A stretch of DNA of 37,123 nt from Bacteroidota bacterium. Lineage in GTDB: Bacteria > Bacteroidota > Ignavibacteria > UBA10030 > UBA8401. A model generated the notes under the pieces. The model was given only the letters and a program-made list of their open reading frames with translations, did no database searches and was not told where the DNA came from. The stretch lies in the NCBI GenBank assembly GCA_020052095.1, contig JAGVPT010000138.1, positions 1 through 37,123 of the forward strand, read 5' to 3'. This document shows positions 13,210 through 26,053 of this stretch, in pieces (position 1 is the stretch's first letter; every line of letters begins with the position of its first letter). The translations under genes were made by a program, and so were the position numbers.

Positions 13210-13312
13210 TTGTGACGTAGAGCCTTTGTGTAATTACATTTGCCACAAAGGCACGAAGGCACAAAGATAAGAAATCTTAGTGACTTTGAGCCTTCGTGGC
13301 AAAGCTTTTGTG
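13204..13312. repeat. CACAAAG-type dispersed inverted repeat
   Basis: TGCCACAAAGGCACGAAGGC (from 13241) and ACAAAG are mirrored by CTTTGAGCCTTCGTGGCA (ending 13301), around the central palindrome AAGATAAGAAATCTT. A further degenerate arm (AAGTCTTTGTGACGTAGAGCC) extends toward the DinB remnant. This is the best-preserved copy in the window. Confidence 0.65.
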
Positions 13313-14730: not shown

Positions 14731-14774
14731 GGCGCCTCCACCGTTAATTCTCACCTCTTACTTCATACTTGAGA

Positions 14775-14895
14775 CATCTGAAAAATTGTTGAGATAGTCA
14801 TGATGAGCGAAGTCGAACCATGATTTCGCTTTGAATTTCACACTTCGACTACGCTCACTGTAACTTTTGTCGGCTTAAAGACAATTTTTCAGATG
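14775..14895. mobile_element. MITE-like element with perfect 15-bp terminal inverted repeats
   Basis: Ends CATCTGAAAAATTGT (14775-14789) and ACAATTTTTCAGATG (14881-14895) are exact inverted repeats. Inside, GAGCGAAGTCGAA is mirrored by TTCGACTACGCTC. The 121-bp element has no coding capacity. Direct target duplications are not obvious. It occupies most of the gap between aguA and the SGNH hydrolases. Confidence 0.6.
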
Positions 14896-14957
14896 CCTTT
14901 ACTTCTTACTTCTTACCTCTTCCTTCTCACCTCTTATCTCTTCCATCCTATCTCTTC
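14896..14957. repeat. Low-complexity CTTCTTACCTCTT word repeat
   Basis: Variants of CTTACTT, CTTACCTCTT, CTCACCTCTT and ATCTCTT follow one another. The tract starts one base after the MITE-like element and reaches into the aguA stop codon at 14948, so the final residues of AguA may be repeat-derived. Confidence 0.6.
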
Positions 14958-23240: not shown

Positions 23241-24158
23241 TCATCTCTCCACAACTCGTGCGCCGTCGTTTTCCACCGTCATGACTTCGTACGTCGAAGA
23301 ATTTCCGTTTGCCAGAAATGCTTTTACCATCGCTTCGCCAATTTTCCTCTCACCCTTTGTGGCGAATGAAAAAACCGTCGGCCCGGCTCCGCTTATGTTG
23401 AAGGACAATGCACCTGCGTCAAGTGCTGCTTTCCTCACATCGTTATAACCCGGAATCAACGCGGCCCGATACGGCTCGTGAAGCCGGTCGATTGTCGTAT
23501 AGCGAAGCGCTTCAACGTCGCCGGCAATGAAAGCAGCCACGAGCGACGCGACGTTTTCAATATTGGTAACGGCATCCTTTAGAGAAATTTCTTGGGGAAG
23601 GATCTTGCGGGCCTGCTTGGTGAGCACTTGAAACTGTGGACTGCACGCGACTACGGAGAGCCGGGTTGTGATTTTGATGCTGCGACAATGGAGTTTTCCG
23701 TTGTCGAAGCAATTGACTGTCAATCCGCCCATCAACGCCGCAGATACATTGTCGGGATGGCCTTCGAGTGAAACTGCGATGTCGAGCATCTCTTCACGCG
23801 ACAGTTTTGTCTGCAGCAGAGCGTTCGCGAGAAATACGCCGCCGGCTATCGCCGCACCGCTTCCACCAAGCCCTCCGTATGCAGGAATTTCATTTTTGAT
23901 TTGAAGATGAATCCCCTGTAGGGACTGCCTATACGCAGTCCCCCCGCGTTTCGCCACCGCCATCATTCCTTGATAGACAAGATTTGTTTCATCCGTCGCA
24001 ATATGTTCCTTGCCGTATCCTTCGACTGAAATTTGTAGGGACTGCGCATCTGCGGTTCTCTGGGTCGCGGAAATATACAAATATCGATTCAAGGCAAGTC
24101 CTAGCGTATCAAATCCAGGGCCGATATTCGATGTTGATGAAGGAATTTTTACTTTCAT
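23241..24158 (-). CDS. thrB: Homoserine kinase
   Basis: A GHMP-family kinase of 305 residues that phosphorylates homoserine to O-phosphohomoserine for threonine synthase. The start MKVKIPSSTSNIGPGFDTLGLAL and the end FNISGAGPTVFSF are typical. The phosphate-binding loop reads PAYGGLGGSGA (92-102), with glycines in place of the more usual Ser residues (PxxxGLGSSAA), still compatible with the family. SLEGHPDNVSAALMGGL follows. Two in-frame copies of a palindromic repeat add TAxxxQSLQ-like stretches at residues about 35-42 and 74-81. It is the last gene of the lysC-thrC-thrB unit under the Thr leader, and is separated from thrC by the four-helix-bundle cassette. Confidence 0.94.
   Translation of the reverse strand: MKVKIPSSTSNIGPGFDTLGLALNRYLYISATQRTADAQSLQISVEGYGKEHIATDETNLVYQGMMAVAKRGGTAYRQSLQGIHLQIKNEIPAYGGLGGSGAAIAGGVFLANALLQTKLSREEMLDIAVSLEGHPDNVSAALMGGLTVNCFDNGKLHCRSIKITTRLSVVACSPQFQVLTKQARKILPQEISLKDAVTNIENVASLVAAFIAGDVEALRYTTIDRLHEPYRAALIPGYNDVRKAALDAGALSFNISGAGPTVFSFATKGERKIGEAMVKAFLANGNSSTYEVMTVENDGARVVER
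23921..23942. repeat. Palindromic repeat inside thrB, copy 1
   Basis: GGGACTGC-CTATAC-GCAGTCCC is an 8-bp perfect inverted repeat within the coding sequence; with flanking TGTA it encodes TAYRQSLQ in frame (residues about 74-81). Confidence 0.7.
24035..24064. repeat. Palindromic repeat inside thrB, copy 2
   Basis: TGTAGGGACTGC is shared exactly with copy 1, then GCATCTGCGGTTCTC forms a degraded second arm. It encodes TADAQSLQ in the same frame as copy 1 (residues about 35-42), on the N-terminal side of a beta strand. Confidence 0.6.
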
Positions 24159-24161
24159 CGT

Positions 24162-24766
24162 TTCACCGCAATGGCGTAGCTGTCATTAGGCAACAGGCAT
24201 TAGGCAATAGGCAATAGGCATTATGCAATAGGCATTATGCAATAGGCAATAGGCATTAGGCATTAGGCATTAGGCAATAGAAAATCTGATGCATTATTTA
24301 ATTTTTGATATGAGCGATGTAAGCATCTTGCTAATTTCTGTAATCTCTTTGAAGATGTTCTCCGTATCTGATTGTGCCAAATATTTTAATCTGTCGCATA
24401 TGTTGATTTGTGTTTCTATCTCCATGAGTGAGCCTCGACTTATCGAAAGGAATTGCCTGTAATTTCCGGTCGATTGCCTTCCGTATCCTTCGGCAATATT
24501 GGAGGGAATCGAAACCGACGCTCTTCGTAACTGAGATGTCAATCCAAACTGTTCACTCGCAGGAAGTTTTTGGGTAATCCTATAGATCCTCACCGCTAAA
24601 TCCATACTCCTCTGCCATACTATCAAATCCTTGAAGCTCCTAATTGTGTTCTTTGCAGACTCCATTTTGCCCCCCTTTTTCTAATTGATTAAGCCTATTC
24701 CCTACTACCACCTACTGCCTAATGCCTGTTGCCTATTGCCTAACGCCTTTGCGTCATTGCGGTGAA
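24162..24766 (-). mobile_element. Four-helix-bundle cassette with terminal inverted repeats, between thrC and thrB
   Basis: Ends TTCACCGCAATG (24162-24173) and CATTGCGGTGAA (24755-24766) are exact 12-bp inverted repeats; the next bases are R-CG on both sides. Inside them is a second inverted pair: GGCAACAGGCATTAGGCA (24189-24206) and its exact complement at 24716-24733, each within runs of GGCAATA/GGCATTA heptads (about a dozen on the left, four or five on the right). The single gene inside encodes a four-helix-bundle protein. The right end touches the thrC stop codon and the left end lies three bases before the thrB start. No transposase is present, so it would be non-autonomous or mobilised as RNA. 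Target duplications are not obvious. Confidence 0.7.
24294..24665 (-). CDS. Four-helix-bundle protein (S23/Avd-like)
   Basis: 123 residues, the normal length of the family first seen in 23S rRNA intervening sequences and related to Avd of diversity-generating retroelements. The characteristic parts are FKDLIVWQRSMDLAVRIYRIT (10-30), LPASEQFGLTSQLRRASVSIPSNIAEGYGR (about 34-63), then YRQFLSISRGSLMEIETQINI and a last helix with ISKMLTSLISKIK. Family members form basic pentameric barrels that bind nucleic acid; their function outside retroelements is unknown. There is no reverse transcriptase or variable repeat here. It lies alone in a cassette with inverted repeats and runs in the operon direction. 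The AAA-GGGGGGCAAA stretch before the ATG could serve as ribosome binding site. Confidence 0.92.
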   Translation of the reverse strand: MESAKNTIRSFKDLIVWQRSMDLAVRIYRITQKLPASEQFGLTSQLRRASVSIPSNIAEGYGRQSTGNYRQFLSISRGSLMEIETQINICDRLKYLAQSDTENIFKEITEISKMLTSLISKIK

Positions 24767-26053
24767 TTACAAAAATCTCTTCACTTCCTCGATCGTTGCT
24801 TCAATATCGACCGGCGGGTTCGCAAGCTCTCCATGTTTCTCGATATGATAATCAACAATGGCTTGCGGGTCTTTCAAAATATTTCCCGTGAGAATCCCGA
24901 CGACGGTTTCCTTCGGCTTCACGATTCCGTTCTCGATCAGTTTTTTTAATCCCGCGACCGTCGCACACGATGCAGGCTCGGCGCCGATACCTGCTCCGTC
25001 GACATGCGCTTTCGCTTCAAGGATCTCATTGTCTGTCACGCTTTCGACTATCCCGTTTGTCCATTGGAGCGATCGAATTGCTTTAGTGTAATTCGCCGGG
25101 TTCCCGATTTTTATGGCTGTGGCGATGGTATGTGCTTTCTGTGGCCGCAGTTCTTTGAATCCATCTTTGAATGCTCTATAGAATGGACTTGCTCCTTCTG
25201 CCTGGATGACGGCAAAACGCGGCATTTTCTCGATAAGTCCAAGCTCGGACGCTTCATGCAGCGCCTTGCCAAATGCGCTCGTGTTGCCGAGGTTCCCGCC
25301 CGGAAAAACAAACCAATCCGGTACTTTCCACCCAAGTTGCTGCAATGTTTCCCACACGATGGTCTTCTGCCCTTCAAGCCGGAACGGATTGATCGAGTTA
25401 AGCGGATACGCTTGAAGCTTTTCCTGTGCTTCGAAAATCAATCGCATGCAGTCATCAAAATCTCCGTTGACAATCAGCGTCTTTGCTCCGTAGGCGAGCG
25501 CTTGAGATATCTTACCGACAGCAACGCTCCCTTTCGGAATCAGAACCAATCCTGTCATCTCCGCTTCCGACGCATAAGCCGCAAGAGAGGCAGAGGTGTT
25601 TCCTGTCGAAGCACAGACGACCGCTTTTTGACGAAGCCTCTTTGCTTGGGTAACAGCGACGGTCATGCCCCGGTCTTTGAAGGAGCCCGTCGGATTCTCT
25701 CCCTCGTGCTTAAGGTAGAAATGACGAAGCCCGAGCCAGGAAGAAATCTTTTTGCTCTGATGTAATCGCGTATTGCCTTCCTGCTTGAAAACGATTTCTT
25801 TTTCCTTCACAGACGGCAGGACGAGTTCACCAAAGTGCCACACGCCACCGGAGGGCTGGTTATGAATGGTTGCCCGTTTGCCGTTAAAATATTTTTTTGA
25901 CAACCGAAATTTCTTTTTTAACTCGTGCACGTCGTGTGCCACATCAAGCAGATGTCCGCACATGCACGTGAACCTGACGTCGGTCAATGCATATTCTTTT
26001 CCGCACGAAATACATTTGAGAATTGAAAGTTGCATACTCTCAGTCGATTGCAT
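24767..26053 (-). CDS. thrC: Threonine synthase
   Basis: A PLP enzyme converting O-phosphohomoserine to threonine. It has 428 residues, with an N-terminal zinc-ribbon-like segment (CISCGKEY, then CMCG, residues 14-33), as in the class II/archaeal-plant type rather than the E. coli type. PLP lysine is Lys126 in NPTGSFKDRGM; STGNTSASLAAYA binds the cofactor phosphate side, and FPGGNLGNTSAFGKAL matches the second glycine loop. Its stop codon is followed at once by the inverted-repeat cassette. A gap of 225 bases with a MITE-like element separates it from lysC, yet direction and pathway argue for one operon. AAGGAATCAC precedes the ATG. Confidence 0.95.
   Translation of the reverse strand: MQSTESMQLSILKCISCGKEYALTDVRFTCMCGHLLDVAHDVHELKKKFRLSKKYFNGKRATIHNQPSGGVWHFGELVLPSVKEKEIVFKQEGNTRLHQSKKISSWLGLRHFYLKHEGENPTGSFKDRGMTVAVTQAKRLRQKAVVCASTGNTSASLAAYASEAEMTGLVLIPKGSVAVGKISQALAYGAKTLIVNGDFDDCMRLIFEAQEKLQAYPLNSINPFRLEGQKTIVWETLQQLGWKVPDWFVFPGGNLGNTSAFGKALHEASELGLIEKMPRFAVIQAEGASPFYRAFKDGFKELRPQKAHTIATAIKIGNPANYTKAIRSLQWTNGIVESVTDNEILEAKAHVDGAGIGAEPASCATVAGLKKLIENGIVKPKETVVGILTGNILKDPQAIVDYHIEKHGELANPPVDIEATIEEVKRFL

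Follow-up and report, generated by a model that had tools for sequence, protein, structure and literature searches.

How does a gene of the family known from 23S rRNA intervening sequences (IVSs) come to lie between the protein-coding genes thrC and thrB, and not within an rRNA gene? The gene sits in the window, as we call the whole 37,123-nucleotide stretch of DNA analyzed here, and a preliminary description had assigned it to a mobile, IVS-like element acting in an mRNA operon. That description had also recorded a 605-bp unit with exact 12-bp terminal inverted repeats, an inner exact 18-bp inverted repeat built of heptads, and gaps of 0 and 3 bases to the flanking genes, all of which we confirmed (Table 1). 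The terminal repeat (TTCACCGCAATG/CATTGCGGTGAA) is exact over 12 bp and can be extended to 15 bp at 93% (24162-24176 / 24752-24766); three bases remain at thrB and none at thrC. Further in, heptad arrays of inverted GGCATTA/GGCAATA words flank the gene. Their best pairing covers 38 nt with 89% complementarity, and an exact 18-mer, AGGCAACAGGCATTAGGC, is common to both strands (24188-24205 on the plus strand and 24717-24734 on the minus strand). The transcript strand of 605 nt folds at -194.1 kcal/mol, compared with -150.2 +/- 8.4 kcal/mol for 20 shuffles (z -5.25). An Rfam search of the window returned no match. The purine tract AAAAGGGGGG, by its sequence, is likely a Shine-Dalgarno element, and tracts like it precede several other start codons of the family.

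Table 1. Features of the insert between thrC and thrB and of its neighbors (window positions)
Feature	Positions	Strand	Remarks
Whole insert	24162..24766	-	Spans thrC stop to thrB start, 605 bp
Outer terminal repeat, thrC side, TTCACCGCAATG	24755..24766	-	Exact 12 bp; octad-type word CACCGCAATGACGCAAAG
Outer terminal repeat, thrB side	24162..24173	+	Inverted match of thrC-side repeat
5' heptad arm	24711..24748	-	AGGCGTTAGGCAATAGGCAACAGGCATTAGGCAGTAGG in transcription sense
Purine tract AAAAGGGGGG	24670..24679	-	Immediately 5' of IVP start codon
IVP gene, 123-aa four-helix-bundle protein	24294..24665	-	PF05635, TIGR02436 and PDB 2gsc homology
3' heptad arm, ~14 heptads	24184..24280	-	Inverted complement of 5' arm
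thrB (GHMP kinase), downstream in operon	23241..24158	-	Profile match
thrC (threonine synthase, PALP family), upstream in operon	24767..26053	-	Profile match

The family assignment was correct as well. The encoded protein (IVP) matches PF05635 (23S_rRNA_IVP) with 145.3 bits against a cut-off of 33.8 (E 8.9e-43) and TIGR02436 with 141.3 bits against a cut-off of 24, and it is homologous to XCC0516 (E 6.8e-30; PDB 2gsc, an entry with five chains of identical sequence). Thirteen matches to PF05635 occur in the genome. For the protein scan a single protein served as query, a mixed protein alignment being too diverse. Profile searches found no nuclease or transposase domain in IVP. A defense system was dropped as a candidate because PADLOC gave no defense match. 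IVP also matches phrog_3206 (Avd) and reaches 32.8 bits with the bAvd profile PF22296, below the cut-off of 40; a diversity-generating retroelement was nevertheless dropped, since there is no reverse transcriptase near the gene and the sole RVT_1 match of the genome lies on another contig (C36). The mean net charge of the IVP domains of the clade is not positive, so RNA binding through charge alone is not suggested. With dN/dS values of 0.04-0.31 in 12 pairs of relatives, IVP proteins are under purifying selection.

The surroundings of IVP genes were surveyed in two samples, one of 100 loci from the window's own genome and its order, the other of 90 loci from named records of at least a dozen phyla, as judged by record title. 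Complementarity of the flanks in inverted orientation exceeded that of dinucleotide shuffles (60 each) at 111 of the 190 loci (52/100 and 59/90), compared with 19 of 190 in direct orientation (6/100 and 13/90); about 40% of the copies had no significant inverted repeat in this shuffle test. When cross-locus pairs were the reference, 39 of 100 loci in the order sample and 50 of 90 in the cross-phylum sample lay above the 99th percentile in inverted orientation, and six in each sample did so in direct orientation. Direct repeats, considered as the alternative, were near background and were discarded. Across 373 kb of the own genome, flank inverted repeats scored at least 28 in six of seven testable IVP genes versus 5 of 163 other genes (Fisher 1e-7), and two of these five are immediate neighbors of IVP genes.

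The arms have a favored period of 7 and its multiples, or of 8 or 9 in some subfamilies. Their word varies between loci, yet the two arms of one locus match: many copies have an array of their own on the upstream side and, on the downstream side, the inverted complement of that array, with words of the CAGTAAT, GGTCCAA, GTGAGAC, TTGAAAA, GAATTAG and other types. The 5' arm is purine-rich in most cases, and the heptads have a common AG core (4.19 bits versus a null maximum of 3.65). The preliminary description had proposed a search for inverted repeats around other copies, and about half have them, each with its own word; common ends of the TTCACCGCAATG or GGCATTA type, which it had also envisaged, are absent. 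GGCATTA arrays flank only the window's copy among the 13 in the genome, and they also occur elsewhere in the genome without an IVP gene. A conventional transposon with shared ends was dropped because no other IVP copy is flanked by GGCATTA arrays. We noted in passing that the period apparently tracks the subfamily, being 8-9 in the EEMKVWQDAR type, 8 in the VYQKAL type and 7 in most others; this is an impression from loci L005, L087, L090, L096, L100, L104, L106, and L117 versus L103, L123, and L128.

Arm words and protein sequences are related. We compared loci of different genomes whose outer flanks are unrelated, counting proteins as similar at a similarity of at least 0.6. Common arm words occurred in 30% of similar-protein pairs, against ~4% under permutation (0/5000), and in no such pair when the orientation was reversed; the match was replicated in the cross-phylum set (p 0.002). 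Complementarity was higher within a locus (27.1) than between loci of similar proteins (19.7; p 6e-9), and the arms are hence both subfamily-like and locus-specific. An overall Mantel rank test gave a weak correlation between the similarity of proteins and that of arms (0.07; permutation maximum 0.083); the effect is confined to closely related proteins, for which the permutation test was done. Inside orthologous groups, pairing within a locus did not always exceed pairing across loci, and concerted evolution of the arms was mixed, being stronger at ftsA-ftsZ. In three orthologous pairs (L048/L052, L057/L093, and L241/L245), little or nothing has changed in the 3' arm and at the start of the leader that follows, while the coding flanks differ by ~12-15% and the 5' arm drifts. 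A constant 3' arm beside a drifting 5' arm is not predicted by selection for pairing alone.

Comparison of single sites among relatives supplied the empty sites that the preliminary description had called for. No IVP gene lies at the thrC-thrB junction in any of the 16 relatives in which this junction is readable. Between ftsA and ftsZ, a cassette is present in 6 genomes and absent from 14; in one genome of the same genus (G001, FtsZ 94% identical), the spacer is gene-free and holds, by eye, complementary heptad-like arms. At three sites, between flanking genes that are 81-90% identical, the IVP gene and both arms have been exchanged as a block for another IVP type. These comparisons indicate that cassettes are gained, lost, and exchanged at single sites. 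No target-site duplication was seen by eye at the compared junctions, where the empty sites are not very close, and no clean recent transposition was found among them. Orientation is strongly biased, with 151 of 158 cassettes whose two neighbors agree lying in the sense direction. Native genes of the own genome also mostly agree in strand (173 of 189 triples), so the relevant comparison is the even split of a randomly oriented insert. Sense orientation in operons and purifying selection would both suit an ordinary, vertically inherited operon gene, regulatory or toxin-antitoxin-like, with hairpins that serve as terminators or mRNA stabilizers. We regard this as barely plausible because sites may be empty or have whole blocks exchanged, because presence is patchy, because there is no partner gene or PADLOC match, and because the arms are long period-7 arrays.

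A second class of hairpin is found at the same junction. The outer word CACCGCAATGACGCAAAG has 19 sites with at most 2 mismatches in the own genome, versus 1 for the backward control. In the thrC-thrB spacer of one relative (G015), a gene-free hairpin carries the window's outer word TTCACCGCAATGACGCAAAG in opposite orientation, and that of another (G012) holds a GxxExxY gene (PF13366) between arms of that octad type, CACCGCAGAGACGC...GCGCCTTTGCGGTG. Of 30 GxxExxY loci (L173-L202), drawn from the own genome and 25 relatives, 23 have inverted octad arms; since all of these loci use one vocabulary, a cross-locus null is uninformative, and shuffles were used instead. GxxExxY genes form a second class of cargo, arranged on the same plan. 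Their arms were seen to draw on a common set of words (CACAGAG, GCAAAGACG, and CGCAGATT). The outer 12-bp repeat is probably foreign to the IVP element and uses the octad words found around GxxExxY genes and in gene-free hairpins; the IVP unit proper is then probably the inner 24184-24748, and the window probably holds an IVP heptad cassette inside an octad hairpin that predates it, the outer repeats being what is left of that hairpin. Elsewhere in the window, a gene-free octad hairpin in the GxxExxY-arm vocabulary (GCCACAAAGGCACGAAGGCACAAAGA / TCTTAGTGACTTTGAGCCTTCGTGGC) lies at 13242-13302 between two co-directional genes, and a spacer without a gene at 14755-14947 has CTTACTTC heptad tracts and more inverted repeats.

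Gene-free hairpins bear on two further explanations. The first treats the genes as passengers: replication slippage and template switching would make heptad and octad hairpins in the spacers of operons, and small genes, selfish or host, such as IVP and GxxExxY, would be captured by recombination between arrays, the protein having no action on the repeats. In this vein, the gene-free thrC-thrB gaps of 8 of 15 relatives fold better than nearly all shuffles, with sequences that all differ; two unrelated cargo families have the same architecture; and according to a statement cited in PMC4679880, heptamers are the most frequent simple repeats of many genomes. It is nonetheless improbable, because arm words go with the protein subfamily even where sites are unrelated or phyla differ, and because inverted arms enclose IVP genes far more often than other genes. 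The main rival is mobility at the DNA level, where the arrays are ends for transposition or recombination, read as DNA or as single-stranded hairpins (cf. REP/RAYT or MITE) by IVP or by an enzyme that is of the host or acts in trans. RNA pairing would be incidental, and sense orientation would stem from selection against transcript disruption. The protein-arm match and the whole-block exchanges suit a relation of transposase and end, and hairpins that lack a gene but use the same words are frequent, like non-autonomous derivatives (13 of 138 spacers of the sampled genome). We rate this explanation as rather unlikely: IVP has neither a nuclease nor a transposase domain, a target-site duplication was not seen, locus-private ends are unlike those of real transposases, and known relatives reside in rRNA with documented RNA processing (PMC4990558).

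We favor the view that the insert represents a widespread group of mobile IVS-like cassettes whose arms probably pair in mRNA and are likely read by IVP. Such a cassette consists of an IVP gene in the loop of an inverted 7-9-nt tandem array, placed in an operon spacer in sense and flush with its neighbors. In the polycistronic mRNA, pairing of the arms would place the IVP message in a loop, much as the terminal stem does with the interior of a 23S rRNA IVS; the arm duplex might be an RNase III substrate, in which case the flanking and IVP messages would become separate RNAs. The IVP ring probably recognizes its own arm repeats through the AG core every 7 nt, and such recognition would couple the protein to its arms and promote the spread both of whole cassettes and of derivatives that lack the gene. 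We infer pairing, RNase III cutting, and arm recognition from the anatomy, the sense orientation, and the precedent of rRNA IVSs; the manner of transfer is inferred, too. The original idea that a mobile, IVS-like element acts in an mRNA is largely supported by the insert anatomy, the empty sites, the inverted repeats around other copies, and the swaps, with its shared ends corrected to a private word at each locus. More tentatively, IVP might represent a new kind of mobile element with self-made, hypervariable arrays as ends, the protein helping to copy, extend, or match the arms. If so, the AG core would be read at a fixed 7-nt spacing (8-9 nt in some subfamilies), a private word per locus would persist alongside complementarity, the gene-free heptad and octad hairpins of bacterial operons would be footprints, and GxxExxY would be a convergent second cargo.

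To our knowledge, IVP/four-helix-bundle genes are widespread in bacteria and have been without an assigned function since 1993. Heptamer repeats between genes have likewise been reported time and again, with no cause given. Finding the two together, with protein-matched arms and in at least a dozen phyla, offers a testable explanation for both. It suggests that operon spacers are colonized by a mobile class that possibly reshapes mRNA processing, and the IVP genes of cas operons and of rRNA genes may have come there through that same invasion. This class of operon-invading hairpin cassettes is widespread and apparently undescribed; among the open-access literature searched, we found no paper joining IVP genes, heptamer pairs, and cas-locus and rRNA insertions.

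How do these cassettes compare with known systems? Like the insert, the 23S rRNA IVSs of Coxiella and Leptospira hold an S23p/IVP ORF within the loop of terminal inverted repeats, and that of Coxiella has tandem GACAGAT heptamers of strain-variable copy number and a 28-bp terminal stem (PMC4990558). Those IVSs sit in rRNA, whereas the thrC-thrB insert sits in a protein-coding operon and belongs to a class with locus-specific heptad arms and swapped cassettes; and the Coxiella ORF is reported to be decaying and probably not expressed (PMC4990558), whereas the insert ORF has a strong Shine-Dalgarno-like tract and low dN/dS in relatives. The bAvd protein of diversity-generating retroelements is a distant homolog of IVP, but no reverse transcriptase adjoins the window's gene. 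The same gene also occurs within other transcription units, namely 16S/23S insertions of CPR bacteria (PMC11270868) and cas loci, where passages of PMC3936711 note its co-occurrence with Cas4/Cas6 nuclease genes and make no mention of flanking inverted heptad arrays. In cyanobacterial plasmids (L283, L286, and L292), we found IVP genes in sense within CRISPR operons (cas6-IVP-cas4 and cas10-IVP-cmr3 family), with strong inverted heptad arms at two of the three loci (L283 and L286), and these sites appear to be operons into which cassettes have inserted. Tandem 7-mers in intergenic DNA, as in the cassette arms, have been published as GGGAATC in Xanthomonas, with 70-75 inverted heptamer pairs in two genomes, and GGGGAYT in Nostoc (PMC4692102), and as TAACTGA in Beggiatoaceae (PMC4679880). 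Those reports describe one dominant word per genome and no link to IVP, whereas the cassette arms have a private word at each locus.
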